From NCBI GenBank assembly GCA_029339195.1, contig JAPTJF010000211.1, positions 1 through 64,000 of the forward strand: DNA of 64,000 nucleotides, in the 5' to 3' direction. Below, piece after piece: positions 259-63,777 of the stretch (the stretch's first letter is position 1; each line of letters begins with the position of its first letter). This stretch comes from Micractinium sp. NFX-FRZ (lineage: Eukaryota; Chlorophyta; Trebouxiophyceae; Chlorellales; Chlorellaceae). The notes beneath the pieces were generated by a model. The model did no database searches, had not been told where the DNA came from, and saw only the letters and a program-made list of their open reading frames with translations. The position numbers were made by a program, and so were the translations under genes.

Positions 259-3200
259 ATGAGTGGTCTGGCCGCTGCGAGCCGCCAGGGGGTGTGCTCC
301 CCCCTGGCCTGCCCCCAAACGCCCATGCGGTCTTCAAGGGCCATCGCAGCAGCGCCAGTGGTGCAGCATCAGCGCCCCACCAGTGCTCCCCGGCGGGCGG
401 CTCTGCGGATCGCTGCCTCCGCTGCCCCTTCTGGCTACGGCGGCTACGGGCCACAGGGTGGTGAGTCTGAGCTCGATTGGGGATTGGTGGGGGCTGTGCC
501 GAGGCCTGGAGGCGGCTGCAGGAGCTCCCCCATGCCGCTCACCCTTTGGCCTGGTCCCTCTGCAGGCGACGCCCGCATCAAGGTCGTGGGCTGCGGCGGT
601 GGCGGCGGCAATGCCGTGAACCGCATGATCTCCAGCGGCCTGTCGGTGAGCCTCCTGCCGCCGCCGCTGCCGTCGGCAGCTGCTGCCGCGCCCGCCCCGC
701 GCCTTTCCCGCCCAACACCCGCCCCTTTCCCCTCCTCACCCCAACGCTTCCCACTTTCTCTCCTCCCTTGCAGGGCGTGGAGTTCTGGGCGGTCAACACT
801 GATGCTCAGGCGCTGGAGAACCACCAGGCGTTGAACAAGCTGCAGATCGGCTCCGCCCTGACGCGCGGCCTCGGTGCGCTCCTCGTACTGCAGCTGCCCG
901 TCTGCCTGACTGGCTGGCTGCTGATCGCCGGCGCACTGCCGCTGCCGTCTCTGTGGCCTGCGTGCTCCACAGTTTGAAAAGTGCCGGCATTTGAATGGGC
1001 CCGGATGGGAGGCGGCACGCTGCGCCAGCTGCGCCGGCTGCGCCCCACTCGAGTAACCCTCCGCCTTCCGTCGAGAGAAGTACGTCTTGTTTCACATAAT
1101 TGCTTGCGCGCACGCGCGCCCCATGCCTCCACGGCGCCTCCGTCCCAATGTGCGCGCTTCTTTTGCTGTGCAGGCACAGGCGGCGGGCCCGACCTAGGCA
1201 AGGAAGGAGGGTGCCCAGGAGAGCCACCCGTACCTCTCACCCCCCATCTCTTCCTCCACTGCTTCCTCACTTCGGTTCATGGTGTTTTTCAACTTCCTCT
1301 GCAGGCACGGGTGGCAAGCCCGAGCTGGGAGAGGAGGCTGCCCAGGAGAGCCACCAGGAGATTGCGACCGCCGTGCAGGGCGCAGACATGGTGCGCCGGC
1401 TGGGCAAGGGTGCCGCGCGGCACGCCGCCCGTGTGCAGTGGTGCACAGCACGCAGCGTGCAAAACACTGAACTGTGTCCGGCATCTGTTGGGGCCAGCAT
1501 GCATCTTTGGTACGCACAGCATGCGCCGCAAACCCCCCAGCGCTGCACCTACTCGCGTAACCTTTCGTGCAACTGGTGGGAGGCAGTGGCGCCTGGCTGC
1601 TGCCACTTCGCGCCCGCTGCCTTTGCCGCTTCTGCGCCCCCACATTAGTGCCCATCACTCTCGTCTTGCCCAGCAGCAGTCCACTCTGCTCCGTGCTGCG
1701 CTGGCTCACACGCATCTGACGTGCTTTGCATGTCACGCTGCCCACCCCCCTGCCAGGTGTTCATCACCGCCGGCATGGGCGGCGGCACCGGCACCGGCGC
1801 TGCCCCCGTGGTGGCCCGCCTGTCCAAGGACATGGGAGTCCTCACCGTGGGCGTGGTCACCTACCCCTTCTCCTTTGAGGGCCGCCGCCGCGCGCTGCAG
1901 GTGCGGTGGTAGCCGGCGGGCGCTGCAGGGACCGCGCGCAAGGGGCAGAAGTTTGCTGCCCGCGGGTGGGGGGCTGTCCCGTTTCCTTCCAGGGCCGTCG
2001 CTTCGTGCTGCAGGCGGGGGGTGTCAGGGCAGTGGGCGGGCAGGGACTGGGCAGATTGGAGAGGCGTAGCGCCTGGTTAGGCAGCCCAACAGCAGCGTGC
2101 GTGAGGGCAGAGCAGAGGTGCAGGCTGCTCTCTGAAAATTCCTCCAGAGTTCACTAAAGGTGCTATGACTTACGTGGGCACCCCGACTGCCCGACTCTGG
2201 TGTCTCCTCCCACCACCAACGGCTGCCCTGCCCTGCCCCGCCCTGCTCCCTCCTCCATCGCAGGCCACCGACGGCGTGAGGCGCTGCAAGCACGCGGGCA
2301 CCCAGACTGCGCTGCCTCCCCTCACCGGCTGCCCTGCCCTGCTCCTCTTGTTCCGCCGCAGGCCACAGACGGCATTGAGACGCTGCGCAAGAATGTGGAC
2401 ACACTGATTGTGATCCCCAACGACCGCCTGCTGGATGTGGTGGGGGAGAGCACGCCGCTGCAGGACGCCTTCCTCCTCGCCGACGACGTGCTGCGCCAGG
2501 TGGGCCTCTAGCCACGTCAGTAGGCGGGCCGTGTTGACCAGTGTGGAGGCTGCTGATACTAAATACAGTATGGAGGATGCTGATACTGCACTGCGCCTCC
2601 CGTGGGCCAACGAGCCCACGCATCTCCGAGTGTGCCGCCATGCCTCGCCTGTGGCGCCACTGCCCCCATCCTGCCCCCCTCTCAACCCTGCTTGCCCGCC
2701 CACGCCTTCCTCTCCTCTGGCACACACACACCTGGCAGCGCGTGCAAGGCATCTCCGAGTGTGCGCACCTGCCCCCATCCTGCCCCCCTCTCACCCCTGC
2801 CTGCCCGCCGCGCCTTCCCCTGCTCTGGCACACACCCGCCTGGCAGCGCGTGCAAGGCATCTCCGAGTGTGCGCACCTGCCCCCATCCTGCCCCCCTCTC
2901 ACCCCTGCCTGCCCGCCGCGCCTTCCCCTGCTCTGGCACACACACGCCTGGCAGGGCGTGCAAGGCATCTCCGACATCATCACCATCCCCGGCCTGGTCA
3001 ACGTCGACTTTGCTGACGTCAAGGCCATCATGAGCAACAGCGGCACCGCCATGCTGGGCGTGGGCGTGTCGAGCGGCAAGAACCGCGCGGAGGAGGCGGC
3101 GCTGGTGAGCATCCACTGCTAGGCCAGCGTGTGCGAGGGGTGCATGGGGAGAGGGCGGAGTGGGCGTGTGAAAGTGGCAAGAACCGCACAGAAGGGGCGG

Positions 3201-4815
3201 CGTAAGCGGGTGGGGTGCGGCCCTGCTTTGGTGCCTGCATGTTGGGAGGGAGGTGGGGTGCAGCGGGCACGTCGTGCGGTTGTGCTGCAGGTATGGAGGA
3301 GGCCACGCTGGTGCGCAGTGTCACCTACCGTCCCACTCGGAAGTCGTTAGGGCCTGAACGCTCTCTGCCCGCCCCCTGTTCTGCCCGCCCCCTGCTCCAC
3401 TTCCCCTCACCATCTCCCCCTCGCCTGCAGGCCGCCACCTGTGCGCCGCTGATTGCGCGCTCAGCTCCCTCCCTGCACCCATCGGCCCACACCCTCCCCC
3501 CACCCCCTGTGTGTGTTGCTTCCTGCCTCACCTGCAGGCCGCCACCTGTGCGCCGCTGATTGAGCGCTCAACTCCCTCCCTGCACCCATCAGCCCACCCC
3601 CTCCCCCCACCCCATGTGTGTGTTGCATCCTGCCTCGCCTGCAGGCCGCCACCTCAGCGCCGCTGATTGAGCGCTCCATCGAGCGGGCCACCGGCATTGT
3701 GTACAACATCACTGGAGGCAAGGACCTCACACTGCAGGTGGGTGGGGCCAGCGTGGGGGGGGGGAGGACCTCTCACACCAGGAGGATGACAATGCGGGTG
3801 GCAGCCGCATTGTGGGTTCCGCTTGCGTGGTGGCCGTGGGAGCACCCGGCTTGGATGTGTGGCCCTTGCTGCCAGCCTCCACCCCACTTGTTGAGGCGCA
3901 CCACAGCTGCCCTTTGCATGCGCCCCGCCCCTGCATGCCTGCCCCGCCCCACCTCCCGCCTGCCTGCACGTGCTGTGCGCATGCTGCAACCCGTCCACTT
4001 GCCTCGCACATCAAGCCTCACACACACATGCTCTGCTGCACCTGCGCCCTGTTTGTGTGCAGGAGGTGAACCGGGTGTCGGAGGTGGTGACCAGCCTGGC
4101 GGACCCCTCCGCCAACGTCATCTTTGGCGCCGTGATCGACGACCAGGTGAGGCCCGGCGCTGTGCTCCTGCTGTGCCTGCTCTGAGGCTGGCCTTGCTTG
4201 CGTGTCTGGGCTTACAGTCTGTTTGTTCGCAAAAATAAACTTGCGACACAGACTCCTGGGCAAGCGGGCGTCGCTGCGGATCATGCTCTCTTCTGCAGCG
4301 TTTGCTGTGAGGCTGCCCCCAAGAGGCAGGCGGGCAGGCAGGGCGTCCTGACAGAGTGCGCCATCGCCCCACATCCTGACAGTTCCCCCTCCCGACAGGT
4401 CCCCCTCTCCCACGCACCACACCTTACCAACTCCCCTTCCTGTCAACATGCTGTACCGCCCGTGCAGCAATTCCTGATATCGTCGCCCCCACCTGTTTCA
4501 GCCAGGCCCCAACTTCTGACCTTCACCTGCACACTGGGCTGCCCCCTGCCCCTGCAGTACGAGGGCGAGATCCACGTCACCATCATCGCCACCGGCTTCA
4601 GCCAGACGTTTGAGGAGAACCTGTGGTCTGGCGGCAAGAGCACGGTGAATAACAGCAACATGAATGGTGGCAGCAACGGCAATGGCCGTGGGGGCTATGG
4701 CCAGCAGCAGCAGCAGCAGCAGCAGCAGGCGCCGCAGCAGCAGATGGTGCCGCCGCCGGCGCTGCGCCAGCAGCAGCAAGCTCCGGCGCCCTCCAAGCGC
4801 CGCAGCTGGTGGTGA
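259..4815 (+). CDS. ftsZ: Chloroplast division protein FtsZ
   Basis: Tubulin-like GTPase that forms the division ring inside the chloroplast. Ten exons fit in length and phase: 259-460, 566-645, 774-873, 1305-1390, 1757-1900, 2362-2499, 2955-3104, 3645-3737, 4063-4146, 4558-4815, giving 444 residues. Residues 1 to about 55 are rich in Ala, Ser and Arg and look like a transit peptide. The nucleotide-binding loop GGGGGN lies near residues 78-83 and the tubulin signature GGGTGTG at 164-170; the T7 region and the [11 protein letters not shown] core follow. The C-terminal tail carries a nine-Gln run and ends KRRSWW. The start at 259 was chosen because it opens the transit peptide; ATG 115 is in frame and cannot be excluded. 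A further in-frame candidate terminal exon lies at 5395-5505. Several introns hold degenerate copies of adjacent exons. Family identity is certain; FtsZ1 versus FtsZ2 type is not resolved. Confidence 0.95.
1170..1222 (+). repeat. Exon echo of FtsZ exon 4
   Basis: This intronic stretch, with its own CAG acceptor, resembles the first about 50 bases of the real exon at 1305. It would encode [13 protein letters not shown], against [13 protein letters not shown] in the exon. Mismatches and frame loss show that it is not used as coding sequence. Confidence 0.7.
2145..2330 (+). repeat. Degenerate copies of FtsZ exon 6 start
   Basis: Two roughly 100-base units precede exon 6 (2362-2499). The copy at 2262-2320 begins CAG then GCCACCGACGGCGTGAGGCG, matching the real CAG then GCCACAGACGGCATTGAGACG. 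A weaker unit starts near 2165. A copy of the exon 5 end is also visible at about 1986-2020. Confidence 0.6.
2626..2960 (+). repeat. Tandem array (about 102-bp period) ending in FtsZ exon 7
   Basis: The motif GCAAGGCATCTCCGAGTGTG followed by CGCACCTGCCCCCATCC recurs at about 2746 and 2848, with a partial copy at 2626. The last unit leads directly into the real exon at 2955 (GTGCAAGGCATCTCCGACATC). The array is therefore made of the exon start plus the upstream intron. Confidence 0.85.
3428..3660 (+). repeat. Tandem array of FtsZ exon 8 start
   Basis: Three units begin CTGCAG and GCCGCCACCT near 3425, 3534 and 3640, a period of about 108 bp. Only the last one (exon from 3645) keeps the reading frame. 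The first two encode [15 protein letters not shown] and [15 protein letters not shown] fragments and then decay. Confidence 0.85.
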
Positions 4816-13098: not shown

Positions 13099-13345
13099 CA
13101 CCGCTTCAACGTGGAAGGCAGACGGTGAGTGGCTGGCTGGTGTGCCAATTTTTGCCCGGGCCAGCGGCGTCGGTGCCATGGGGCGGTGCTGGCTGTGTCT
13201 GCTCGCGTGCCTCCTGAGCTCACCCCACCTCTGCCCCCACCCCAGCCTGCGCACACACACCACCCCTTCTTCCCCTTGTTTCCCGCCGCAGGCACGGTCG
13301 CCCCTGCACCTGCATGCGGAGCAGAGAGAAGCGCTTGTCAGCTGG
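12680..13345 (+). repeat. Duplicated splice module in the coiled-coil gene
   Basis: The stretch 12690-12960 (GTGAGTGGCTGGTGTG donor, a CTCACCCCACC-type intron body, CGCAGGCAC acceptor, CACCTGCACCTG exon start) recurs at 13118-13335 with many substitutions. The first copy contains the splice sites used in the gene model; the second lies beyond the stop. Confidence 0.7.
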
Positions 13346-13710
13346 CTACCACCTGAGTGGCGCCGGCAGGGGGGGCAGGGGCCCATGGGGCAGCCTGCCG
13401 GCAGGTGGAGCGAGCAGCATGCGGCAGAAGCCGCTATGAATGCGGCAGGTATTTATATAAATGAATTGTTCCCATGTGTTTCTGCAGAAGTTGTAGTCAG
13501 ATGGTGAGTGACTGAATGACTCACTTCATTGTTATTGCCACGGGCAGAGGTCTGCCAGTATGAACAGACTAGTGAAGTGTTGCCTGTTTCTTATGCGGTA
13601 CCTGTATGTAGGCAGTGAGAGACCGTGACCTGACCTGATTTGTATTCGTCACGCCTTTCCTCACAGTTCTTTAGGCAACTTAGCTCCCACATGTTCTGTC
13701 AATCCGTTCC

Positions 13711-14148: not shown

Positions 14149-17100
14149 TCAGAGGCCGAGGAGGGAGCCGACGCTGCTTGCGAGCTCTGCTGCCTGCGCC
14201 GCGCCCTCCCCGCTGTTGTGCGCCCCAATCGCCAGGCCGGTGGTGAGCAGGCCGAACACCAAGAAGGGCTGCACGAGGCCGGGCCAGGACGGGCGGGGGA
14301 GGAGCAGGCAGGGGAGTGGGGAGGGTGAGGCAATGGACGGAGAACAGGGGGGAGCAGGCATGGGCCGGCAAGGGGTGAGGGGAGGAGAAGGGAGGAGCGG
14401 GGGCGGGGATGGAGGGTGTGGCGGCGGCGGCCAAGTGGCAGAGGTACAAGCGCAACTGAGCGGCTAGTGCTGGTGCTTGGCGCATGCCGCAAGGGGGCAG
14501 GGCAGCACACACACAAACGTGCGCACGCGCACACCTGCCACCCTCCTCAACACGGCACACAGCAGCGAGTGTGCAAGCAGGCTCCCTTGGCAGTCAGGGC
14601 CCCGCTTCCCCCGCCCTCACCCGCACTGCTCACCACGCACAGAAGGGAGCCGCCCCAGCACCACGTGAGTGCATCAATGCGATGCGCTGATGTGTGGCAC
14701 TTGAGGCCGCAGGGTCCCGGCCACTCACCCACTTCCCGTGCTCCTCAACAGCACGATTGGAACCCCAACTGCAGACCCTAACCCTAAACCCTAATGCTAT
14801 CCGGCTTTTGTTAGCATGTCAAGCAGCGCACCTGCGCGGATGCCTGGTACTTGACGTCGTTGGCCACGGGGTCGGGCAGGAAGTACTTGTACTGCGCGTA
14901 GATCTGCGGTACAAGTTGGGGCCAGAGGGGAGGCAGCACACGAGGGTTGCTGGCCACGGAATGGGGCGCGCAGCAATTGTACAGCGCCTAGGTCTAGGGC
15001 ACGCAGCGGGTGGGAGGGGAGGCAGTACACTGCATCACTGGCCACGGGGTCGGGCAGGAAGCACTTGCCCAGGCACAAGGGGATCTCGGGCCCCACCCCG
15101 GGGCCAGCCTCACCTAGCCCGACACCCAGTTCCAGCTGACCACTCCCACGCCCAAGGCCAAGCCTTTCTGCTCCTTCGCTCCGCAAACCCGCTGCCTTGT
15201 GAGTCTGAGAACACTCGCAGCCCTCCCCGAACCGGCCCCCGGCCCCGGAGCTTGCCTGCGGCAGGATGAGTCCCAGCAGCACAGCGCCGTAGATGGGCTC
15301 ATTCAGCCCAAAGGCCAGGTAGGCGGCCACGCCCAGCTGCAGCGACAGAACATCGGCAAAAGGGAAAAGACGGGGGAAGTCAGGTGGAGAGTGGGAGGGA
15401 GGAGAGAGGCTCTTCCAGCCCAAAGGCCGGTCCGGCAGCCACTCCCAGCTGCACAGGGGGAGGGAAGCAACGGGGCGGGCAGGGGAGGAGGGCGGGCAGC
15501 CAGGCGGGGGCCCAGGGGGGCGGGCAGCCAGGGCAGGGCAGGCAGGACACGGCGAAGGGCAGGAGGCGGGCACCAGTCGACCATGCATTCCGGCAGCGCG
15601 GGCGAACCTGCGTGGCGTCGATGGATGCCACGCAGATCCACTTGGCGGTCTCCACGCCAAAGGCAACAGGCAGCGACTGCAGGCCCATCGCGCGGTCGCC
15701 TGCGGCAGGGAGCGGGGGGCGGCGGGGAAAGAGAGGGGGTCGGGGCGAGCAGGGGTGGGGCAGCCAAGCCAGCGGGGCGAAGGGGTCGGAAGTGCTGTGG
15801 CGGGCTGACTGGCAGGAAGGCTGGGTGGTGCGCAGGCGGGCAGGCGGGCAGGCATGCCGCCTGTCACGCTCCGCCGCCCCATTCCCGCTTCCCCCATGCG
15901 TTCCCATTTCCAATGCTCCCACTTCCCTGCCCCCACTCCCTTCCAATGCAGGTCCTTCGGTCTCCTGCTGCCCACAGCCCAACGCACCCACAGCTCCCTC
16001 CTGTGAGAGCACCCGCAGACCCAGCACACCTCTAGGCGCCAACCCCGTCTTGACTTGCGAGTCGATGGCACCCGCCACTGTCCGCGCCCACCCACCCACC
16101 CCATCACCGCCCTCCCATTGTCCATGTTTCGGTGCCCTTCCCCCTCCCTCCCTCCCTCCCTCCCTCCTTCAACGCCAGCCCCCATTGTGTTTTGATAAAC
16201 CCACCCTCGATGGACTTGAAGTCGTTGACAATGGCGATGCCCAGGCCGGCAATGGAGTAGAGCACGGTCAGCACCATGACATCCAGGGTCAGCGTGCCAA
16301 ACAGCGCCTGCCAGCCGCAAGGCAGGGGTCAAGGGGGGCGGATAGTGAGGCAGGGTGTGGGTAGCCAGGACGGTCAGCATTTGAAACACACATCCCACGG
16401 GCCACGAGCCGGCGTGCCCATCCACCCACCCACTGCTCATGCAGCGGAAGACGAACAGGCACTGGCGCAACTGGGCTGCCACCGCTTGCCAGCCCAACCG
16501 GGGCCCCCACCCATCCAGCTGGCAGCCGGCCAAGCACGCACCTGGCCGGCCCACCAGGGCAGAGCAATGTAGGAGCTGCCCAGCGCATAGTTGCCCGCCC
16601 ATCCGCTCTGCTTGAGCTTCAGCGGCGGCGCTGCACAGTGGCGGGGGCGGGGCGGGGGAAAGCGGAAGGGTGAGTGGGGAGGTGCGGCGCTGGTGGGCGG
16701 GCGGCGGTGGAGCGACGGGAGCCCAATGAATAACAGCTGGGATGGTTGCCACCAGCCCGGCTCACGCTTGAGATGGCGCTGCCGAGCCTCCGGGCTGAGC
16801 GGGACACCACGGCATGCACTCACACTCAGCATGCACAGCAGCGCTCAGCATGCACAGCAGGAGGTCAGGAGCGAACCAGGGAGGGCCTGCGCTTGCTGGC
16901 CACACACAGGCAGGCGCGCGCGCCCGCACAGAAACAAGAGGCACGAGGGACAGAGGGGCTGAGGGACGGAGTAGCGGATGTGCGAGACGACGGGGTGGCG
17001 GCGCCGTGGGCAGCCTGAGGTGCAAGAGGGGCTCCTGTGTGCCGCCCTACACTGTCCCTGATGCTGGCGCACCGGGGCAGGGCACACAACCACTTCAGCC

Positions 17101-19954
17101 GCTCTCACTCTACTCAGACTAGTACCAGTGCCTGAGCACTCACCAGAGTAGATGTGTGAGATGAGGGGGCCACCAAGCCAGCCCGTAAAACCCGGCGCAT
17201 TGGAGCAGAGCACAGAGGTACTGAAACCTCTCCCAATCTAAGAACATCCAATGCCGCTGCCCACTCGCGCATTGGAGCAAAGCACAGACGTACCGAAACC
17301 TCTCCCAACCTAACTACATCCAATACTGCTGCCCACTCGTGCACAGCACAGAAGAATTACATATCCCAACCTAACTACATCCAATACTGCCTGCCCCTCA
17401 CCAGAATAGATGTAGGAGACAAAGGAGCCACCCAGGGCCAGCACAGTCATGATGGGGAAGTCGTGGCCTGGGGAGATGGGGAGGCAGGTGGGGAGGCGGG
17501 GAGGCAGGTGAGGCAGGTGGGGAGGCAGGTGGGGAGGTGAGGCAGGTGGGGAGGTGAGGCGGATGGAGAGGCGGATGTGGAAGCAGGTGGGGAGGCAGGT
17601 GGGGAGGCGGGCGGGGTGGATGAGTAGAGCGCAGGGCGGCCTGGGCAGCTGAGGACCGTGGGCGTGCCCCTGTGCTCATTCCCGACTGCTCTTTCTCGCT
17701 GTGAGCTCCCACGCCGCCCACCTCCCACCGCCCTCCTGCCACCACACACACTCATGTAACCCACCCCCCCGTCCTCACCCGCCCACTGGTCCAGGATGAA
17801 GGCCACCCCAATGCCTCCCAGCAGCAGCGCCCAGATCTGGGCCTTCACCTCTCCCTCACTGATCGCGCCTGCAGCAGCAGTGACAGTGTGATGCAGGTGC
17901 GGTGGTGAAAAGGAATCGCACCGACAGACTGGTGGCTGTGAGGAGTGGGCGGCGCCCACACCTGGGCCTTTCCCCCCGCCGACGGCGCCTGCACCCCACG
18001 AGCGGGCGGCAGGCGAGGGCCAGGGCCAGGGGCGGGCGGGCAGCCTGAAGCAAGTGGGCGACGAGAGGGCACAGCGGTGCGGCGGTCATCCTGCGCCCCC
18101 GCCTGCCGGCTGCCGCTGCTCTGCTCCTCCAGAAAGTGCAGGCATGGGTTAGGGTGAATCGGCAAGGGGGCGGGGCGGGGCCCCTTGGACTCCCCAGCTG
18201 CCGCCAGCCCTCCCGTTGCCCCGCGCCACTGCCCAACCCCAGCCCGGCCAGGCACCCACCCGAGGGGATGGGGCGGTAAGGCTCGTTGATGGCGTCAATC
18301 TCCCGGTCATACCAGTCGTTGATGGTCTAAATGAAGGCCGGGAAGGACAGAAAGAGTGGGTTCAATGGAAAAGAGGGAACAGAGTGAGCACACCAACACT
18401 GCGGCCCTACCAGCGGCTGGTGATTTGGGGGAAAGGGAGAGACCAATGACTGAAGAAAGAAGGGTTTGAGCAACAACAAGGGGGGCTGCGAGATGCTGTG
18501 GAGCACACGTACTGTCACATCTCTGCACCTGGCTCCCCACAGCCCCGCACTCGAGGCACAGCCCCTTCACCCAGATCGGCACCTGAGTGTAGCCGGTCAG
18601 CAGGGGCCCCGACATGGTCATGCACAGCAGGCTCTTGGCCACGTTGTCGGGCGTCCACTCAAAGTGGCCCGAGGCGGCGGCACCGCACAGCACGCCTGCA
18701 GAGGCGAGCGCACACGGGAAGCAGGGGCGTACGGGAAGCAGAAAAGAGCACAGTTGGGCACACTGTGGAGCTGGGCCTGCTACTAGAGACCGGCCTGCTG
18801 CTTTCTCAAAAGTTTTTTCAAGTAGCTCGAGGCGGCGCCAGCGGACAGCACGCCTGCAGGTCCCAGGAACAGGCGGTGGTCGGCACGCAAGGGCAGCGTG
18901 GAAGCGCCATTCTGCCCACTCCACGACGTTCTGTGCGCCCTCCCCCCCCCCCCCGGACAACCCACCCCAGATGAGTGGGCTTTATCAGCTGCCCTTGATA
19001 TCCCGCTGTGCCTGCCCGCCTCACCCCCGCTCTGTGCCTGGCCTCCTCACCCTCCCTCCCCCCCTGCCCACACCATCCTGCGACTGCTCCCCTCCCTGCC
19101 CACCCTCCTGTGACTGCCCACCCCTCCCCTGCCCACCCTGCCCACGCACCCCAGATGAGCGGGATCCACGTGACGGGCTTCATCAGCTGCAGCCGGATCT
19201 TCCAAATGTTCGTCTCCGTGCTGGCGCCCTTCATGCCCAGCAGCTGCAGGGGCAGAGGCGTGAAGGAGAGCATGCAGGGCGGGGCGTTGATACACACGGG
19301 TGCAGGCCAATGCACCGCATTGGGCCGTGACCCAGTGGCCACATGCCTTGATCTGCCGTTGCTAGCAAGTGGGCGGCAGTGCACCTCCACCGAGTTGCCA
19401 CAGGAGCCCAATACACTTGAGATGGGGGGACTGCCGCGTAAGCAGCACACACACAGACGCGTGTGCAGCACCCACGCACGGCACACAAGTGCTTCCCCTC
19501 CCAACCCCTCCACAGTGCGGTGTGCCACTCCCCAGGCTTGCCTGCGCATTGCCCTTCACACCCAGGAACACCTCCTGCTCCTTGCCCTTCTTGTCGGTCT
19601 TCTGCGCCATGGCCACGGGGCGCAGGCCTGCCGAGAAGGAATGGAAAGGGGCGGCAGCAGCGCCGGCACGGTGGCTCAGACACGCAAGAGGCAGGCGGGC
19701 AGGCGGCGGCGGTGGCGGCGGCAGCTGCCCGGCCGGCCTTACACTGCGGCTGGCGCCACACAGTCCCCTCACACTAGCCTTCCAGTGATTGGGTGCCCAG
19801 CTGCGGGGTGGGCAAGGGCTGACACGGCAAAGCTCTCACCCCTGATGAGCTCCAGGGGCCTGCAGGGGCGCGCAGCCAGCGCTTTGCCAGCAATGCGGGT
19901 GCGGGAGCCCAGGGCTGCAATGCTCGCCCCGGGGGCGAGGGTGAGCTGCGCCAT
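14149..19954 (-). CDS. chlG: Chlorophyll synthase, chloroplast
   Basis: UbiA-family prenyltransferase of the thylakoid or envelope that attaches the phytyl (or geranylgeranyl) chain to chlorophyllide, the last step of chlorophyll synthesis. Thirteen exons agree in length and phase: 19954-19840, 19627-19542, 19243-19150, 18695-18583, 18326-18260, 17868-17779, 17467-17402, 16630-16542, 16307-16205, 15699-15608, 15336-15256, 14903-14832, 14268-14149, giving 395 residues, close to plant enzymes. A transit peptide occupies about 1-50. The first Asp-rich motif is NDWYDREIDAINEP (139-152), the second NDFKSIEGDRA (268-278), each expected to bind Mg-prenyl diphosphate. Hydrophobic helices fill the rest, and the C-terminal core is PFLVFGLLTTGLAIGA. 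Introns after 19542 and 15256 use GC donors (GCAAGC). Five exons have degenerate intronic echoes. It is divergent from the gene at 20237. Confidence 0.97.
14776..14794. repeat. Interstitial telomere-like repeat
   Basis: CCCTAACCCTAAACCCTAA lies in the last intron of chlorophyll synthase. It matches the plant/Chlorella-type telomere unit CCCTAAA over almost three repeats. Confidence 0.8.
14925..15085 (-). repeat. Echoes of chlorophyll synthase exon 12
   Basis: Two degenerate copies lie upstream of exon 14903-14832. The copy at 15035-15085 would read GKCFLPDPVASDAVYC, against YKYFLPDPVANDVKYQ in the exon. The copy at 14925-14995 keeps only scattered identity around the acceptor. Confidence 0.75.
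15405..15460 (-). repeat. Echo of chlorophyll synthase exon 11
   Basis: It would encode VQLGVAAGPAFGLEEPLSS, against LGVAAYLAFGLNEPIYG in exon 15336-15256. It is a decayed copy of the exon start with its CAG acceptor, located upstream of the real exon. Confidence 0.8.
17140..17395 (-). repeat. Donor-side echo and tandem repeats, chlorophyll synthase exon 7
   Basis: At 17140-17195 a copy of the exon end would read GWLGGPLISHIYSG followed by GTGAG, against LALGGSFVSYIYSG plus GTGAG at 17402. Between the two lie three imperfect repeats of CCCAACCTAACTACATCCAA and flanks (17225-17390). Confidence 0.8.
18785..19000 (-). repeat. Echoes of chlorophyll synthase exons 3 and 4
   Basis: At 18785-18850 a copy of the exon 4 start would encode GVLSAGAASSYLKK, against GVLCGAAASGHFEW. 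At 18955-19000 a copy of the exon 3 end would read GQLIKPTHLG with frame loss, against LQLMKPVTWIPLIWG. One intron thus carries echoes of both flanking exons. Confidence 0.8.
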
Positions 19955-43400: not shown

Positions 43401-44700
43401 GGGTGCCCAGATGCCCACACGGTCCTCCTTCTGCGGTGGGAGGACGGGAGTGGGCCACAAGGCGCACGCATTCATGACCAAAACACACACAGCAAGAGTT
43501 TCCTGACAGCAGTGGTTGGGAGCCCAGATGCCAACGCGGTCCTCCTTCTGCCGGGGGTGGGGGTGGGGCACACGGCCATATAGTATCAGCCACACGAGCA
43601 TCCACACAGCAAGAGTCTCCGGATCACTGCAGCTGGCAGCCCACGCTGCAGAGCCCACGCGGTTCTCCTCCTGCATCTACACGCCCCTCAATCACTCCAC
43701 TTGCTGGCACACATCCGCATTCTCTTTCACCATACACCACAGTTGCACTCCAGGCTCACCTGCACCCCGAGCGCCAGCAGGCCGCGCGCCGCCGCCTCCA
43801 CCTGCAGGTGGAAAGCGCGCCAGCTCAGCCGCACGCCCTGGTGCAGGCTGACCACAGCGTCGCTGTCGGGGTAGCTCTGCACGAACGTTTGGTGACAGGG
43901 GGCAGGCAGGGGGGTGTTGTTTATGTTGAGCTGTACACCAGGACAAGGTGCAGTTGTCAGGGTGGCGCTGCAAGGCCGGGGCAGGGCACAGGGTGCGAGT
44001 GCAGAGTGCAGTGTGCAGGGCAACTGCACGCCGGCCTGGGGCAGCTGCCGCCCTTGATCACACAAGCCCTTGATCACACGAGCTGCACGCTGCAGCTGCA
44101 GCCGTTTGCTGACACCCCTGGCCGCTGCTGCCTGACACGCCCGCTCACCCGCACGGTGCGGTCTAGGCACTGCCCCAGCGTCTCTTCAAGTTGGGGCACA
44201 TCTGTGGCGCCCTTCACGTGCGAAAGGCCCTGCCCTTCATGCTGCTGATGCTGCGCTGGCGGCGCCGGGCTGCTGGGCAGCACTGCAGGCGATGGGGGGG
44301 GCAAGGGAGGGCAGGGGCACAGCACACATCGACTGAGCACCGTCGTGCGCAGCTACTGGGGGCAGGATGAGCTGGGCAGAAGCTCTGGGAAGCCATTTTA
44401 GGGCACCGGGACACAGTGGCACTCGGGCAATTGCCGGGGCCGTGCACCCTCCACAGCCACGCCCAACTGTCATTCTGGCGGGCTCCAGGCCAACGCATCA
44501 AACTGCTCACCTGAGCTCCTGAGGCGGGGCAGTACTGTGTCCTGCTGCCTGCTTGAGCCAGACGCCTGTGGCACCGCCACACCCCTCCGCCTGCTGCTGC
44601 TGCTGGCACCGGGGGTGGTGCCGGCGAGCGGGGGTGGCGCCGGCCGCGGTGCCGCCGCCGCCGCCGCGGAGGGCAGCTGCTGCTGCCAGGCGCGGAGCAT
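37472..44700 (-). CDS. Acyl-CoA synthetase, ACSF2-type
   Basis: AMP-forming ligase that activates a fatty acid through an acyl-adenylate to acyl-CoA; closest in type to mitochondrial ACSF2 (medium-chain). Eighteen exons fit: 44700-44511, 44282-44149, 43876-43760, 43430-43344, 43069-42853, 42410-42291, 41863-41764, 41541-41447, 41227-41125, 40880-40802, 40477-40390, 40194-40094, 39759-39676, 39415-39303, 38787-38680, 38355-38286, 38072-38013, 37531-37472, giving 641 residues. The N-terminus (about 1-65) is Arg/Ala/Ser-rich, like an organelle presequence. The phosphate loop YTSGTTGRPK lies near 286-295, YGMTETSP near 428-435, HTGDLA near 510-515, [17 protein letters not shown] near 526-542, and the catalytic Lys of LTISGK at about 620. 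The last intron seems to use a GC donor (GCACGT). Many introns carry exon echoes. Substrate chain length cannot be read from sequence. Confidence 0.95.
38205..38260 (-). repeat. Donor-side echo of acyl-CoA synthetase exon 16
   Basis: Plus-strand CCCACCTTGTAGCGGGGCCA, continuing CCTGCCCCTTGCACCAC, repeats the real exon end at 38281-38320 with a one-base insertion. It would otherwise encode [10 protein letters not shown] plus donor. Confidence 0.9.
38840..38900 (-). repeat. Acceptor-side echo of acyl-CoA synthetase exon 15
   Basis: It would encode [15 protein letters not shown], against [15 protein letters not shown] in exon 38787-38680. Confidence 0.85.
39215..39245 (-). repeat. Donor-side echo of acyl-CoA synthetase exon 14
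   Basis: It would encode EENMYPR plus GTGAGC, against GENIYPR plus GTGAGC at 39303. Confidence 0.75.
39535..39605 (-). repeat. Donor-side echo of acyl-CoA synthetase exon 13
   Basis: It would encode [11 protein letters not shown], against [11 protein letters not shown] in exon 39759-39676. It lies downstream of the exon. Confidence 0.65.
41020..41060 (-). repeat. Donor-side echo of acyl-CoA synthetase exon 9
   Basis: It would encode SKLVLPK plus GTGAG, against AELALPK plus GTGAG at 41125. Confidence 0.75.
42180..42240 (-). repeat. Donor-side echo of acyl-CoA synthetase exon 6
   Basis: It would encode [16 protein letters not shown] followed by a GTGTG donor, against [16 protein letters not shown] at 42291. 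The copy keeps an open frame and a possible donor. Confidence 0.85.
42379..42571 (-). repeat. Near-identical duplication across exon 6 acceptor
   Basis: Bases 42379-42456 and 42494-42571 match over 78 positions with one difference by eye, an offset of 115 bp. The unit contains the exon start (42379-42410), its acceptor and 46 bases of intron. It is the youngest-looking echo in the window. Confidence 0.95.
43135..43200 (-). repeat. Acceptor-side echo of acyl-CoA synthetase exon 5
   Basis: Plus-strand CCAGCTCAGCAGCCCGGTAG, continuing GCGGGGGTTGATGCTGATCT, repeats the real exon start (43033-43072) with an extra G that breaks the frame. Confidence 0.9.
43505..43685 (-). repeat. Acceptor-side echoes of acyl-CoA synthetase exon 4
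   Basis: Two copies would encode [14 protein letters not shown] (43505-43555) and [13 protein letters not shown] (43630-43680), against [14 protein letters not shown] in exon 43430-43344. Confidence 0.9.
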
Positions 44701-50471: not shown

Positions 50472-53440
50472 ATGCGGCGGTCGTTTGCTCTGCGGGCGGC
50501 GCTGAGCGCGCTGCTGCTGGCGGCACTGTGCCATCACACAGCAGCCGCCGAGTGCGATGAGGCATCCGCAGCTGCAGGCAAGCCTGGGCGGCAGATTTTT
50601 GTGGTTCCTGCTGCCCGCTGCCGCCGCCACCGCTGCCGCCGCAAGCGTGCCTCTCACCACCTGCGCCCCTCCGGCACCCCCTGCAGGCTCCTGCGCGGCC
50701 GACGGCTCCGACCTGCCCCAAGAACGGACGCTGAGCCCTGGCGCCAAGTTCAAGGTGTGTTGATGGAGCGGGGGCCCTGGGCGGCCGGGCGAGGTGGCCT
50801 GGGAACCAGTGCCGGCAGGGGGTGTGCACAGACACTTCTGTGCTGCCTGCTGGCACTGGACGCATATGCCCACCCACACGGAAGACCTCCCGCCAGTGCC
50901 CGCATGTGTGCCCTCATATCCTGCCTGTAATATGTCGCGTGCACCAACCATCTCAGATTCATGCCCGCCACGGCAAGCACTGCACCGCTCTGCGCTGCGT
51001 GCACCCTTGCCCCGGCCATGCACAATCACAGCAACCGACACGGCAAGCTTGCTTGGTCTTCCTGTTCACTGCCTTCTGCAGTTCAAACATAAGCGGATCC
51101 ACAACCTGTTTCTGCGTACGCTGCGCTTGACAAAATGCATGTTATCACTAATCCCCACTGGCTTGCAACTGCAGCTAGAACGCAAAGTTTGAGCAGAAGT
51201 GAGCTTTTGGGTTTAGGATTAGGGTTGTAACCAATAAAACCCTAAAACCCTCGAGGGCGCGACCTATTTCTGCGTGCTCTGACGTGTCTGGACTCTTGCT
51301 CAACCACCCACGTTGCTGCAGTTTGAGCGCAAGTGGATCCGCGACTTTGAGGGCGCGGTGCTGGCCCTGGACCCCAGCGGCGGCTATGCCTACCTGCTGG
51401 AAAAGGAGCGCCAGCGGGTGCAGGCCTTCACCTCGGAGGACGGTGAGCGCCTGCATGCCAGTCACAAGTGGATTGCACGCTGGTGCAAGTTGACTGCAAG
51501 GGGTTGCTTGCCTGGGTGTTGTGGGCAACGCACGGGGCCCTTGACAGGCGCACATGTGGGCATGTGCGTGTGTTGCGGGCTGCGTTTGCCTGCTGGAGAA
51601 GGAGCACCGGCGGGTGCAGGCCTTCACCTCGGAGGACAGACAGCCTCCCCCGGTGCACTTTGGTATATTTACGTAGCGCAAGCGGCCAAGGATGCAGTGC
51701 CGGCGGGGGCAGGGCAGTGGCGGGACCTGCAGCATGCAGGCCTGCGGTGTGGGTGAGCGCCAGATGGAGACGCGCTGTCTATGCAAGGGATCCGTGCATG
51801 CACGCCGCAGCCCGCTGCCCCGCCTGCCTGCCGCCGCCCTCTGCCCTCACACCACCACGCCGCCCCTCTGCACTATCCCATCGTGCAGGCAAGTACATTC
51901 TGTCCTGGGGCAAGCAGGGCAGCGGGGAGGGCGAGACGCTGGTGGAGCCTCGGGACCTGGCTGCTGGGGATGACGGCTCAGTCTACATTGTGGACAAGGT
52001 AAGAGTAACCATGGGCACTGATTGAAACAGCCCATCCAGCGTAGGTCTGAGTTTGTAGTCACTGCTTGCGAGTTGGCGGGTTTGGGTGCACGACGCCTCC
52101 GTCTGCATTGTGCACAAGGGTGACAATAACCCTGGGCACTTGTTGCTGTGCCAAATCACCCCATGATCGCCCTGGCAATCCTTTGCAGTGTGCTGGTGCG
52201 GGGGTAGCTGGGGTGCGGCGTCGCCCTTCAGTACCGGGCGGGCTCTGTCCTCCTATTCTTAACGCCCCCTTGCTACTCCGCCCGAAATGCAATGTGTTGC
52301 CCCCGTGCAGTGCCAAATCAAGAAGTTTGAGCCCGGCACCGGCGACGTGCTGAAGACGTGGGGCACCTGCGGCAGCGGCGAGGGCGAGGTGAGGGGCGAA
52401 CTGCTTGCCTAGAGCGGGCATGTGTCTGTGCTGGCGCGTCGGTGCGCCAGCGCGGGCGCAAGCTGGGGTGGGGCGGCGCCCGGGCCGCTGCCCCTGCTGC
52501 GCATGCTCTCTGCTGCGCTGGCTCGCAACCGTGCATCTCCGCCAGGCGGCCCCACCCTTCCCCTGCCTCATGACGCTCCCTCGCCCCTTGCTTGACGCGT
52601 CCCCTCCCCCCACACAGTTTGTCGACCCCACCGCCATTGCGGCCGACCGCTTTGAGCGCTGGCTTTACGTGCTGGACGCGGGCGCCAAGCGGGTGCTCAA
52701 GGTGGACCCGGAGGGGCAGCTGCTGGCCAGCTGGACCGCTGCTGAGCTGGCGGGCGGCGTGGGCATTGCGGTGGGCGCCGACGGCGGCGTCTACGTGGCG
52801 GATGCCTCCTCGTCTTCCGTGCACAAGTACGACCCCAAGGGCAACCTGATCAAGAGCTTTGGCAGCAAGGGCAGCGGCGAGGGGCAGGTGCGCGGAGTCA
52901 ACCGAGGAGGGGGGCTGCTCTCAGGGGGCGTGCTGGGCGGGGGAGGGAATGCAAGCGACCGACGGCCAGCTAGCTGATCAAGAGCAAGAGCTCTGGTGGG
53001 AGTCGAGGGCAGCGGCAAGGGGCAAGCGCACAGCTGCAGCTGAGGAGCCCCAGGGTGCATGCCCCACCACCGCTGCACTACACATGCGCGCCGCCACCCC
53101 TGCAAGCCTCCCTGCCTCGGAACCATGCCACCCATCCTCCTCATACCTCTCCCACACCCATGCATGCCCTGCTTTGCTGCCCTGCCTGCAGTTTGAGTCG
53201 GTTGCGGGCATCACGGCGGACACGGAGAACAACGTGTTTGTTCTGGACTCGTCCCTGGGCCGCGTCCAGGTGTTCACCGAGGAGGGTGCCTACCTGACTT
53301 ACCTGGGCGCCAAGGGCAGCGGCGAGGGCGAGCTGGCACGCCCCACCTGGGTGGAAACCAACAACCTGGGGGATGTGGTGTTTGTGGTTGACGATGGGAA
53401 GTTCATCAAGAAGTTTGCGCTGGAGCGTGAGGAGGCGTGA
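50472..53440 (+). CDS. Secreted NHL-repeat beta-propeller protein
   Basis: Seven exons fit: 50472-50577, 50687-50754, 51322-51442, 51889-51998, 52311-52388, 52618-52887, 53192-53440, giving 333 residues. A signal peptide lies at about 1-25 (LRAALSALLLAALCHHTAAA). The rest is a series of NHL-type blades of about 45 residues, each with a strand such as GGYAYLLEKERQRVQAF, GSVYIVDKCQIKKF, RWLYVLDAGAKRVLKV, GVYVADASSSSVHKY and NNVFVLDSSLGRVQVF, and linkers of the form WGKQGSGEGE. Six blades are plausible. NHL propellers bind proteins or polymers; some are peptidylglycine-processing lyases, but no catalytic motif was seen, so no reaction is assigned. The first intron uses a GC donor (GCAAGC). Echoes of exons 3, 4, 5 and 6 are found in introns. 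Confidence 0.88.
51070..51115 (+). repeat. Acceptor-side echo of NHL gene exon 3
   Basis: CTGCAG followed by TTCAAACATAAGCGGATCCA would encode FKHKRIHNLF, against FERKWIRDFE in the exon from 51322. Confidence 0.8.
51205..51250. repeat. Inverted telomere-like motifs
   Basis: TTTTGGGTTTAGGATTAGGG at 51205-51224 and AAAACCCTAAAACCC at 51236-51250 form an inverted pair with an 11-base loop. It lies between the exon 3 echo (51070-51115) and the real exon (51322). Confidence 0.8.
51583..51645 (+). repeat. Donor-side echo of NHL gene exon 3
   Basis: It would encode CLLEKEHRRVQAFTSED, against YLLEKERQRVQAFTSED at the end of exon 51322-51442. The donor is lost: GACAGA replaces GACGGTGAG. Confidence 0.95.
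52080..52165 (+). repeat. Echoes of NHL gene exons 4 and 5
   Basis: CGACGCCTCCGTCTGCATTG, continuing TGCACAAGG, copies the exon 4 end (GACGGCTCAGTCTACATTG at about 51972), followed by a similar downstream tail. TGTGCCAAATCA at 52149 copies the exon 5 start at 52309. Confidence 0.8.
52975..53035 (+). repeat. Donor-side echo of NHL gene exon 6
   Basis: TGATCAAGAGCAAGAGCTCTGG and GGGCAGCGGCAAGGGGCAAG copy the exon end TGATCAAGAGCTTTGGCAGC, GGGCAGCGGCGAGGGGCAGG at 52847-52888. Confidence 0.8.
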
Positions 53441-53873: not shown

Positions 53874-53878
53874 TTACA
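53874..53878 (-). terminator. TGTAA poly(A) motif, NEDD1-like gene
   Basis: TTACA on the plus strand, 179 bases after the minus-strand stop at 54057, in a local AT-rich patch. Confidence 0.6.
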
Positions 53879-54056: not shown

Positions 54057-57000
54057 TTAGAGCCAGAGGAAGTCCTCACGGCGGGTGGTGAGGGCTGCCA
54101 GCTGGCGGCGCAGGGCCGCCACCTCACCGCTGAGCGCCTCGTTGCGCTCCAGCACCTGCCCCACCAGCTGCCCCATGGCTGCCTGCTGCGCCTGCAAGGT
54201 GGGCGGGGAGGCGGAGGGAAAGGGCTCAGAATGTGATGGGAAGCGAGCCGGAAGCGCAAGAAAGCAACCAGCAAGTCCCCACAAATGCCGTGTGTGCCAC
54301 ACCTGGCATGCTGCCCTGCCCCAAGGCCCTACTACATAAGAACCACTGCATTCAGGCTGCCGCTTGCCACGTGCTGCTTGCCCCGTACTGCTGCTTGCAA
54401 GCTGCCTGCACCACACACACGGCACCTGCATTGTGCGGGTCACATCATGCTGCCTGCCTGCCCCGCTTGCCTGGAACTGGGTGATCATGTCGAGGTGCAT
54501 GGCCAGCAGGTCGTCCCGCAGCGCCTGCTGCGCATCCACAGCATGCCCAGCAGTGCCTGGCGCCGGCGCAGCACTCGGCTCGCCCGCCACCTGGCACACG
54601 CCCGACACAGCGGTGGCCCAGGCCGCGCCGCTGCAGCCAAGCACCTCGGCGCTGCGCTGCGCCGCTGCAAAACTGAAGTCACCGGAGGTGCCTGCTGCTG
54701 CTGGCGTTCGCTGCTGCTGCTGCTGCTGCTGTGCTGCTGCTGCTGCTGGCGCCTGGAAGGCCGCTGGGCTGGCGGCGTCCCCCGAGGGCAGGGCGCCAAT
54801 GGACCACGGTTGCTGGAAGCCGCCAGAGGCAGTGGGGGCCAGGCTGGCAGGTGCCACATCTGCATCTGCCACTGCCGCCGCCTTGATCTTGCGGGCGCCT
54901 GCCAGCCCCGCCTCCTCAGCTGCTGCTGCTGCTGTGGTGGCGGAGCCTGCAAACTGGCCCATGTGCTGCTGCTGCTGCTGCCGCTCCTGCTGCTGCCTGC
55001 TGGCGACCGAGGGCGGTGCCACAGCCGGCGACGGCAACGGCAGCGGCAGGTTCTCTGCAAAAGAAGGCGACGCCTGCACTGCCGGGTACATCTCCTGGTC
55101 ACCTGCTGGCGGCAGCGGCGAAGCTAGCCCTGGCAGCATGCACCGCTCCGCCGCTGCAAAACTGCTGCTAAAGCCGCGGCCGCTGCTGCCAAAGTTTGGA
55201 GAGCGCTCCCCCAGCACGCTGCGCTGCTGGCGGGAGGCGGGCGCTGCCGCTGGCGCTGCCGCGGCGGCCATGCCGGGCAGCGGGCTGATACACAGCTCAG
55301 GCGCGGTGCCGCTGCTGTGACTGCGATCCACGCCTGCCAAGCTGCCGTTGCTGAGCGGGCTGATGTCCAGCGGCAGGGGCGGCGCCGGCGCAGCCAGACC
55401 CGCCTGCCTGGCGCTGTGTGCTGCTGCCAGGGCGGCCTGACGCCCTGCGGGCGGCGCCACCAGAGGGGTAACATCCAGCGCCAGCGGGGCAGCTGCCAGC
55501 AGCTCCAGCGGCGACTCTGGAACCGCTGCTGAGGTGGCCGCAGCAGTTGCTGTGCTCATGCCGCGGCCTGCGCCACCAAGCGCACTGAGAGGAGTGATGC
55601 TCAGCTGCTGCAGGCGCTGGTCTGCCTCCCGGACATCAATGTCAGACACACCCGGCTGCCGCTGGGTGGCCGCAGGGGTGATATCGCCGCTCGCGGCAAC
55701 TGCTGGTGCACGCCCATAGCGCGGCGCCACCCCCATCAGCGGCGTGACAGCCAGCGGGGCAAAGGTGCTGGGAGGCGCAGCTGCTGGTGTGGCTGCAGCG
55801 GGGCGCGGCGGGGGCGGCGCCGCCGTATTGCCAGCTGCGCCGCCTGCTGCCTGTGCGCTGTGGCTCCTCTGCAGCAAGGGTGCTGCTGCTGCCGCTGCGG
55901 TTGCTGCGCCTGTTGCCTCCCCGCCTCCTGGGGTGGCAGCACGAGAGGCTGGAGCCGACACAGAAGCGCGGCGGTCGGCTGCACCTACAAGAGACAGGGT
56001 GTGTGCATAACCAGTGAGCATGCTTGCCAATCAGAAACTTGCTGTGCAGATCGAGGCAGCAAGAACACGGGCTGCCTCCTGAAATAGAAGCTTATTGCTG
56101 TGCAGAGCGAGCGCCAACAGGTGTCAGCGGGCCGGCAAATGGACATCATCACAACAAGTGCACGGCTCAGCACAGCAGCACTGGCTGTGGCAGTGGCAAG
56201 CAAGCTACACGACTGGCTCCCTCGCTCACCTGATGCTGGCGCTGCCACCCCCGCTCCGCTGCCTGCTGCCATGGTGCCTGCCGCAGGCGTGGCCCCCCGA
56301 GCTGCGGGGATGCGCGAGCCAATGGAGGCAGCCGCCGCTACAGAGGGTGCAGCTGCTTCCAAAGAGGCAGCTTGAGATGGTGCCACGCCTGCTGCAGGCT
56401 GGCTGCTTTGCGGGGCAGGGGCACCCGTGGCGGCAGCTGCTCCGGGGGCGGCACGGTGCCGTGCGCCCAGAGTGGTGTAGCGGTGCTGCCAGTGCAGCCC
56501 GGTGACTGGCTGGCCGTCAGGAAAGCGGATGGAGTGCAGCGGCTGGCGTGTGTTGCGGGGGTCGTACAGTCGCACAACGCCGTCTGCATAGCACAGCATA
56601 GCGCAGCACAGAGCAACTGAGCCTGGCAGCCCCAGTGAAAGCAGCAAGCAGCCAGGATGGCCAAGTAGCAGGCCAGAGAAAGGGCGGCAGTGCAGCCGTC
56701 GGCGCGCCACCTCACACCATTCCACCTGATGCCTCTGACAAGTGGCCCCCCGGTCGGCACAACACCCCAGCTGCTGCCAGCCCTGCACCCTTGCTGTGCC
56801 TGCACCCAGCAGCCTACCACCTGCCCTGCAACGAGCTGTGGCTGCCTGCCCTGCACACCTGCTGTGCCCACCCCCAGCAGCGTGTGGTCCTCCTTCACCA
56901 TCAGCGCAGTAGCGGGAGCCCCCACAGAGATGGCAGCTACGCGGCCAGGCCCGGCATTGCGGTCCTGAGCAGGGTTGGTAGGCAGGTGGGCGAGCAGGAG

Positions 57001-60389: not shown

Positions 60390-60420
<31 letters not shown>

Positions 60421-62983: not shown

Positions 62984-63055
<72 letters not shown>

Positions 63056-63777
63056 TGATGCAGGCGCAGCAGCATACTGTGCCCCAGCAGCAGGAGCAGC
63101 CGCCGCCGCAGCAGCAGCAGCAGCATGCCCAGCAGCAGCCGGCCTTGCTGGAGGAGGAGAGCTTGGTCCCTTTGCTGGGCAGTCGGGCTGCCGGCAGCAG
63201 TGGGCCCGCAGGCCAGGCGGCCGCGGCGGCTGGGGCGGCGGCAGGGGACGGCAGCGGCGGCAGCTCGGCTTACACCGGGGTCTGTTGGGACCCAAGGCGC
63301 TCCGGATGGCTGGCAGAGCTGTGGGACGGCCAGCAGCACAAGTGAGCTGAAGTGACTGGGTTGAGCTGCCTGCACTGATTCACCAGACGCTGCGGTTGAT
63401 GCCGCATGCGGCAGCGCTGTGCGCAAGCGGGCGCCCGCTCCGCTCTCGGCGAGACTGCACGATGCGTGCGCCTGGTAACGCTGTGCCGTGTGTGCCTCGC
63501 CCGGTGCACCTGCCCCTTAGCCCAAGCCTGTGCACACCTGGCACCCCCTTTCCTGCGCCCCCGCCCTCACCTTGACCGCTGCCGCTTGCTTGAAATGCTG
63601 ATCTTGTGCTGCTCTTGTGCAGAGAGCTGGGCGTGCTCCCTGGAACTATAATCCCTATAGGGTTTTAGGCGGTTTCAGATAAACATAAACTCTAATCCCT
63701 TTGCAGAGAGCTCGGTGTCTTCCCCGGGGAGACAGATGCAGCGAGGGCCTACGACCTGGCCTGCCTGGCACGCCAAG
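60038..63777 (+). CDS. AP2-domain transcription factor, three AP2 domains (3' incomplete)
   Basis: DNA-binding regulator of the plant-type AP2 family. Exons that fit: (start uncertain)-60744, 60921-61210, 61573-61979, 62396-62487, 62820-63341, 63707-63777; about 530 residues from the first in-frame ATG at 60038, but the N-terminal 100 residues are doubtful. A Gln run ([12 protein letters not shown]) lies at about 60380-60425. AP2 domain 1 spans exons 2-3 (SRYRGVVWHKSNSKWEARI to GTVSKLNFPGEH), domain 2 spans exons 3-5 (SSRFRGVSWNSNCGKWRAQ to GAPTNFPSSNY). A 23-Gln run comes next, then domain 3 (SSAYTGVCWDPRRSGW to ARAYDLACLARQG), cut by the window end or continued unspliced, since the frame after 63777 stays open to the end. 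The order of YRG, WEARI and AARAYD elements is typical. Its role in this alga is unknown. Confidence 0.85.
62250..62290 (+). repeat. Acceptor-side echo of AP2 gene exon 4
   Basis: CCGCAG then CTCTTCGAAGGGCAGCAGGG, against the real CCGCAG then GTCTGGAAGGGCAGCGAGG at 62396; similar bases continue for about 20 more positions. Confidence 0.75.
62986..63054 (+). repeat. (CAG)23 coding repeat
   Basis: Twenty-three uninterrupted CAG codons encode polyglutamine between AP2 domains 2 and 3. Pure CAG, with no CAA interruption, is expected to be length-variable. Confidence 0.97.
63620..63706 (+). repeat. Echo of AP2 gene exon 6 with telomere-like spacer
   Basis: TGCAGAGAGCTGGGCGTGCT, continuing CCCTGG, at 63618 copies the exon start TGCAGAGAGCTCGGTGTCTT, CCCCGG at 63702. 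The spacer between contains GGGTTTTAGG and TCTAATCCC, which resemble telomere repeats. Confidence 0.85.

Follow-up and report, generated by a model that had tools for sequence, protein, structure and literature searches.

Exon duplication can yield mutually exclusive exons, in which case exon sequence is repeated in an intron. Smaller duplications that interact with splice sites have also been described. In the potato RdRp gene, a tandem duplication over an intron-exon border, comprising the end of the intron and the start of the exon, activated a cryptic donor and gave a new intron and a new exon, and the first intron of the same gene also holds an 83-bp duplication (PMC4974935). Duplication of AGGT segments has been reviewed as an intron source (PMC3443670), and in rice, insertions of 10 to 1000 bp have been described as tandem duplications resulting from nick or break repair (Vaughn and Bennetzen 2014, summarised in PMC7407515). 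Introners add intron sequence genome-wide, with one element copied into many genes (PMC9860276). The published accounts are cited here from excerpts. The subject of this analysis is a 64-kb stretch of the green alga Micractinium sp. NFX-FRZ (contig JAPTJF010000211.1, positions 1 to 64,000; the window), whose introns carry partial copies of the edge of a neighbouring exon together with its splice site, here called exon echoes.

The window was analysed together with 240 kb from 13 other contigs, picked by contig number before their sequence was viewed (the first 304 kb), and a hold-out of 40 kb from two further contigs was scanned with the frozen model. The total of 344 kb corresponds to 0.5% of the 66.07-Mb, 838-contig genome. 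Gene models were ab initio predictions, without RNA backing, from a self-trained splice and coding hidden Markov model, which learnt AG|GTGAG as the donor and TGCAG|G as the acceptor signal in the 304 kb and modelled 599 introns (median, 238 nt; exon median, 102 nt). Each junction query consisted of 12 nt of intron and up to 60 nt of exon and was aligned to its own intron; introns from other blocks, length-matched where possible, served as controls.

Exon echoes in introns were confirmed. In the window, 38 of the 207 exon-intron junctions had a copy in their own intron, compared with 10 of 4140 swapped-intron controls (score of at least 28). An earlier reading of the window, made from its letters alone (the sequence-only reading), had described the copies as private to the neighbouring exon and had counted over 35 of them, and both statements agree with this result. 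It had also seen echoes in at least nine of twelve genes; the scan found them in 8 of 11 gene models, 2 of which rest on a single match each with a score of 30. Over the first 304 kb, at a score of at least 40, own-intron copies were found for 25 of the 587 acceptors, for equally many of the 587 donors, and for 0 of 5870 controls in each class. Pooled, this gives 50 of 1174 for the own intron versus 0 of 11740 for introns of other blocks, far in excess of the controls. At thresholds with 0.17 to 0.21% false matches, there were 49 positive acceptors and 47 positive donors, of 536 each. A first lag scan, in which local lags of 25 to 419 were compared with an equal number of distant lags (3000 to 3394), gave 188 merged events at local lags and none at distant ones; its stricter complexity filter, which lost some long true ladders (lag 109 at 2654; lag 115 at 42376), was later relaxed.

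Beyond the window, the echo signal was weaker yet clear. Copies were detected at 58 of 903 junctions in the rest of the first 304 kb (score of at least 28) and at 9 of 117 hold-out junctions versus 0 of 2340 controls (score of at least 30). The density in the window was ~3 times that in the rest of the sample, with the GcvT gene foremost (12 of 26 junctions); the genome-wide extent claimed by the sequence-only reading thus holds in that echoes occur outside the window, but at about a third of the density seen there. Its placement of copies of exon 5' ends upstream and of 3' ends downstream was correct, since wrong-side matches occurred at only 3 of 530 and 3 of 530 junctions (score of at least 40, first 304 kb). 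To call the introns filled with echoes was too strong: a detectable event at lags of 75 to 300 was present in 73 of 587 introns of the first 304 kb, and events in introns and at junctions with lags of no more than 145 have a summed lag of 12.9 kb, or 7.0% of intron length. Counted without overlap and one per event, the detected units amount to 11.9 kb, which puts the overall share at ~6.5 to 7.0%. Under the strict filter, an exon-touching echo was found in 29 of the 54 genes having at least two introns in the first 304 kb.

The echoes have the adjacent, direct-repeat, whole-unit structure of small local tandem duplications. The copies are in direct orientation, and in 71 of 90 echoes the lag is between 70 and 145. 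Ladders occur as well, with a period of 107 to 109 in FtsZ and, at one GcvT exon, with lags of 114 and 233 on one side and of 113 and 218 on the other. In some well-preserved intronic pairs the identity spans the whole unit (88/88, 67/68, and 103/103), and older junction cases retain part of the duplicated unit only: the exon side often stops abruptly, and the intron side fades. Intron-side homology past the aligned core (extension score of at least 10) was detected in 36 of 90 echoes versus 3 to 5% of control pairings. The exon part measures 5 to 62 nt (with the query limited to 70 nt). Of the 90 echoes, 88 repeat a single exon edge and its splice site, and in the other two, both 27-nt exon models, the copy covers the modelled exon. 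Rates in the junction class peak at lags of 90 to 134 bp and drop from 135, with some doubled lags near 210 to 240, and the highest intron-only bin is 105 to 119, with 12 events. Above 150 bp, the intron-only rates of 0 to 0.12, which come from 0 to 2 events per bin, are not clearly lower, and the junction rates are 0.01 to 0.02.

Compared with the described systems, the border-spanning tandem duplication is shared with the potato RdRp gene; however, a new intron and exon arose there, whereas in the alga the copy is absorbed by the existing intron, and in many cases (PMC4974935, as excerpted). As in the duplication of AGGT segments, a small tandem duplication interacts with splice sites (PMC3443670), but the 587 algal introns show no recognised intron creation. 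The rice insertions resemble the echoes in size range, in comprising tandem and partly tandem copies, and in their local source (PMC7407515). They differ, as far as the excerpt goes, in that the algal copies are fossils at exon borders, with a junction preference for 90 to 134 bp and a shortage between genes. Introners, as excerpted, also differ, since each algal copy is private to its exon; a sequence family common to the introns of many genes was not seen, and 1 of 30 window self-matches lay at a distance of at least 3 kb. Mutually exclusive exons need a copy of the whole exon with both splice sites, unlike what is seen in 88 of the 90 echoes. The sequence-only reading knew of no named system that matches. 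Border duplication itself has been described, in potato, but among the matches listed in the open-licence literature there was no account of genome-wide exon echoes in introns or of such a density.

Although the echoes appear centred on exons, exons do not seem to be targeted or junctions to be special, as the rates at junctions and in intron interiors are similar once the room available is taken into account. At lags of 75 to 145, the room-corrected rates per 1000 positions were 0.48 for intron-only events (n = 27) and 0.65 for junction-touching events (n = 69), and at lags of 30 to 74 they were 0.33 (n = 38) and 0.31 (n = 9), under a crude correction that assumes at least 15 nt on either side of the junction. 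In 15-bp lag bins from 30 to 149, the intron-only and junction rates were 0.14/0.11, 0.09/0.10, 0.08/0.10, 0.07/0.09, 0.07/0.21, 0.22/0.22, 0.09/0.12, and 0.03/0.03. Tiled self-similarity (score of at least 40) was 4.99% at junctions, 5.05% deep in introns, 3.69% within exons, and 0.77% in intergenic DNA, with at most 0.09% in random-place controls. On these grounds, the suggestion that exons are copied as such is not supported and copying targeted to junctions was rejected, with the lag bin of 90 to 104 and the intron tiles closest to exons as exceptions. A splicing constraint as the cause of the few short lags (below 75) at junctions was likewise rejected, because geometry suffices: the 9 junction and 38 intron-only events correspond to nearly equal rates. 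The exon-centred appearance is largely the result of geometry, selection on exons, and the longer readability of the exon half.

The echoes are most probably the remnants of ordinary small tandem duplications (~30 to 130 bp; junction cases, mostly 90 to 134 bp) that still arise in genes, combined with purifying selection. A stretch within an intron, or over an intron-exon border, is duplicated head to tail, as the lag structure and the ladders show. For a unit lying across a border, use of the splice site in the copy that adjoins the rest of the exon would keep the mRNA the same and the other copy would turn intronic, a step consistent with the absence of the extra peptide from GcvT orthologues. 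Since only exon-proximal splicing leaves the mRNA unchanged, acceptor echoes would come to lie upstream and donor echoes downstream. The echo then decays without visible coding constraint while selection holds the exon copy, and the exon half for that reason stays recognisable longest and makes the process look exon-centred. The net outcome would be slow growth of introns by copying that seems accidental and without harm. By analogy, the molecular source would most likely be error-prone repair at staggered breaks or at nicks. Local tandem duplication at varied times, longer introns, decoy splice sites, and subsequent decay had all been suggested by the sequence-only reading and are supported here.

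Exon-internal repeats were in frame in 42 of 44 cases and intron-only repeats in 19 of 80; duplications inside exons survive nearly only in frame, in line with what selection on the protein would predict. The 44 exon-exon events were excluded from the rates, and most of the 23 listed in the stricter scan look like low-complexity coding repeats. In 41 alignments of exon parts, a few of them from one ladder, the mismatch counts by codon position were 45/535 (first, 8.4%), 49/532 (second, 9.2%), and 73/526 (third, 13.9%), and all 11 of the 11 indels in the echo exon parts were not multiples of 3. The third-position surplus would fit synonymous change in the real exon, and neither codon-position mismatches nor indel frame gave a sign of coding constraint on the echoes in these alignments. 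In simulation, detected cases had a mean age of 0.07 to 0.10, and the detection horizon was ~0.1 neutral substitutions per site. Among the decoy splice sites, 22 of 24 acceptors still had their AG and 11 of 17 donors their GT, and neutral simulation gave 0.72 to 0.81 for AG; there is no convincing sign that these sites are either purged or maintained. That the echoes are kept as decoy or regulatory splice sites is thus very unlikely: the high AG retention and the ability of some GcvT and FtsZ decoys to pass for exons in the gene finder would speak for it, but AG retention is near the neutral expectation, GT retention is low, frame and codon pattern look unconstrained, and the echo peptide of GcvT is absent as an extra copy from six orthologous proteins.

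Several observations weigh against plain duplication followed by selection. Self-similarity was lower (2.78%) in intron tiles no more than 30 nt away from exons, and in the lag bin of 90 to 104 the junction rate was three times the intron-only rate. More generally, the preference of the junction class for 90 to 134 bp is left unexplained by plain duplication. Events were also 5 to 6 times rarer between genes than in introns (ratio, 0.18; bootstrap, 0.08 to 0.35), with 3 events versus 19.4 expected at lags of 75 to 145 (P = 5.5e-6) and 3 versus 15.3 expected at lags of 30 to 74 (P = 1.7e-4), in a sample of 52.7 kb of intergenic DNA in 56 short segments. A uniform neutral process would not predict such a shortage unless intergenic DNA were strongly constrained. 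Finally, intron-side homology is lower than simulated neutral decay with small indels predicts. Among echoes of at least 90% identity with lags of 70 to 145, it was present in 9 of 19 versus 79 to 94% in the simulation, and the values were 8 of 15 versus 59 to 74% for the class of 82 to 90% identity and 4 of 12 versus 41 to 59% for the lower class. This deficit could stem from rearrangements of larger size in introns or from templated fill-in that leaves the intron flank out of the copy.

Both the preferred size and the scarcity of events between genes could reflect a mutational process tied to gene bodies, through transcription or R-loop nicks or through introns themselves, that has a preferred product of ~110 bp and is rare between genes for mechanistic reasons. 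We consider this process rather unlikely. The peak and drop of the junction rates and the position of the largest intron-only bin agree with it, and among the nine cases classed as intergenic or mixed, several sit at the ends of genes (L016 18228; L018 4682 and 4807; L026 7103). However, the intergenic segments are short and contain promoters and untranslated regions, so that selection could account for the shortage as well; the drop above 135 is seen in the junction class only; and the gene models are ab initio and cover a small share of the genome. It is similarly doubtful that a distinct transcription- or intron-linked process makes ~110-bp duplications, mostly spares intergenic DNA, and acts as a main engine of intron growth, with decoy sites feeding new isoforms. 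The low intron-side retention leads to another, rather unlikely possibility for some of the echoes: templated fill-in at breaks (theta-type end joining), in which a short exon-edge copy and an unrelated spacer are put into the intron. In several echoes of 94 to 97% identity, homology on the intron side is slight or absent (43031/43141, 51393/51589, and 14861/15039), and the rice work, as excerpted, includes non-tandem insertions sourced less than 200 bp from the break (PMC7407515). Nevertheless, most echoes share the lags of the clear tandem cases, residual homology persists in the 36 echoes mentioned above, and two of the three echoes just named are at lags of 178 to 196, as expected after loss of an intermediate copy.

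Under the model of Rogers, echoes would mark introns newly made by tandem duplication of exon segments. Donor and acceptor flanks were alike in register in 5 of 587 introns versus 0 of 1735 controls (score of at least 14), but all five, judged by eye, are echo ladders with copies miscalled as micro-exons; the flank-register scan and the reading of alignments recognised no intron creation among the 587 introns, and this origin is highly improbable. An assembly artefact, which the closeness of the unit sizes to short-read lengths might suggest, is hardly credible, given that the copies differ by 3 to 33% with indels and form ladders and that one echo block searched genome-wide matched its own locus only. 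Ordinary small tandem duplication with purifying selection remains the reading that we prefer, with the size preference, the intergenic shortage, and the weak intron-side homology as the points that do not fit it.

Within the window, FtsZ (plus strand) has an echo at 1163..1228 of the acceptor at ~1305 (80%, lag 131), which includes intron tail, TGCAG, and exon start, and donor echoes at 1978..2014 (donor at ~1901; score, 34) and 3157..3202 (donor at ~3105), the latter without its GT. The exon starting at ~2955 is preceded by a ladder at 2654..2974 of ~3 copies with a period of 108 to 109, 94% identical, which extends 20 nt into the exon. The exon at ~3645 has a ladder of 2.4 copies at 3419..3676 (period, 107; 93% identical) consisting of TGCAG and exon start, two copies of which were miscalled as micro-exons by the gene finder. 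In the UbiA-family gene (minus strand), echoes of the exons with acceptors at ~14903, ~15336, and ~18695 lie at 15039..15067 (97%, lag 178), 15408..15453 (83%, lag 112), and 18820..18859 (88%, lag 158), respectively.

GcvT (minus strand) has echoes of the donors at ~28657 (28436..28469; score, 48) and ~29613 (29480..29537; 79%, lag 122) and, at the exon start with its acceptor at ~29711, a multicopy ladder at 29665..30296 that includes 47 nt of the real exon (lags 101, 220, 326, and 445). The exon ending at ~30675 has two donor-side echoes (30441 to 30491 and 30558 to 30608; lags 218 and 113) and two acceptor-side echoes within 30897..31069 (lags 114 and 233) that read CTGCAG|GTACACCGGCGAGG, the peptide of which occurs once in each of six orthologous proteins. 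A decayed ladder at 31403..31648 (70%, lag 85 and more) belongs to the exon with its acceptor at ~31355, and the acceptor at ~31990 has an echo at 32089..32135 (84%, lag 129). The AMP-binding gene (minus strand) has donor-side echoes at 38193..38246 (93%, lag 70) and, for the junction at ~42290, at 42144..42226 (80%, lag 108). Acceptor-side echoes on the minus strand were also found for the junctions at ~42410 (42491..42594; 96% over 85 nt, lag 115, with the intron part kept too), ~43069 (43141..43188; 94%, lag 110 to 111, with intron-side homology stopping after 8 nt), and ~43430 (43514..43674; 71%, lag 117). The exon ending at ~51443 in the NHL gene (plus strand) has a donor-side echo at 51589..51637 (94%, lag 196) that has lost its GT, and the donor at ~56858 in the WD40-like gene (minus strand) has one at 56780..56813 (score, 43). 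In the AP2-like gene (plus strand), which is already among the 8, position 63706, at which the sequence-only reading had placed the end of its series, is a true acceptor: read by eye and under the scan threshold, GCAG|AGAGCT ends there and its echo (63620..63645, lag 84) at 63622.

All 7 window proteins submitted, out of the 11 window models, had a Pfam match, namely, FtsZ, UbiA, polysaccharide deacetylase (with the profile covered in part only), GcvT, PAM68, AMP-binding, and an NHL-type propeller. Compared with the six orthologues, the model of GcvT has an additional YTGEDGFEL and an insert of 43 residues, and it lacks one stretch that they possess; in both GcvT and FtsZ, echoes were mistaken for exons by the ab initio gene finder. 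GcvT adjoins PAM68 (28119 to 35935). The nearest named proteins, from Micractinium and Chlorella, are 61 to 74% identical to PAM68 (best seven) and 68 to 74% identical to GcvT (best five). The locus numbers of the two genes are adjacent in Micractinium tetrahymenae (ABPG75_009402/009403) and Chlorella ohadii (COHA_003193/003194), so that the GcvT-PAM68 gene order is probably conserved with both relatives. The deacetylase-like model that matches the Pfam polysaccharide deacetylase family (23272 to 27211) includes a minisatellite of 17- to 57-bp units (e.g., CAGGCGCAGTGGCGGTA) at 24145 to 24332. A second deacetylase-like model with NHL repeats (46548 to 53440) owes its putative deacetylase part to a reading of the sequence, without a Pfam match. 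At 12684 to 13428, where a small gene model of doubtful standing ends, there is a weak direct repeat (67%, lag 427), and neither an Rfam family nor a tRNA was found in the 64-kb window by Rfam and tRNA searches. Outside the window, the joined block of L020 and L021 (7115 to 11671) has five exon matches of 73 to 92% at lags of 2575 to 2783, a tandem duplication of part of a gene ~2.7 kb long, and L008 and L009 show a similar single exon match at a lag of 2787. L030 has a strong exon-internal repeat at 10735 to 10881 with an in-frame period of 63 bp, a coding minisatellite.

The observation is true and well supported, with a probable cause that is mostly ordinary, and what makes it interesting is the density of the echoes, the preferred size at junctions, and the scarcity of events between genes. 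The introns modelled here are longer (mean, 278) than the mean of 207 in the first column of a published table, as excerpted, which we take to be that of C. vulgaris (PMC6972661), a difference that is suggestive only, as the methods differ. For annotation, the GcvT echoes taken for exons by an ab initio gene finder are a warning. Should the preferred size and the dearth of intergenic events be confirmed, they would indicate a specific repair or transcription-linked process. Duplication of exon borders represents a transposon-free way for introns to lengthen, and with it intron growth and the birth and decay of decoy splice sites become measurable in one small genome.

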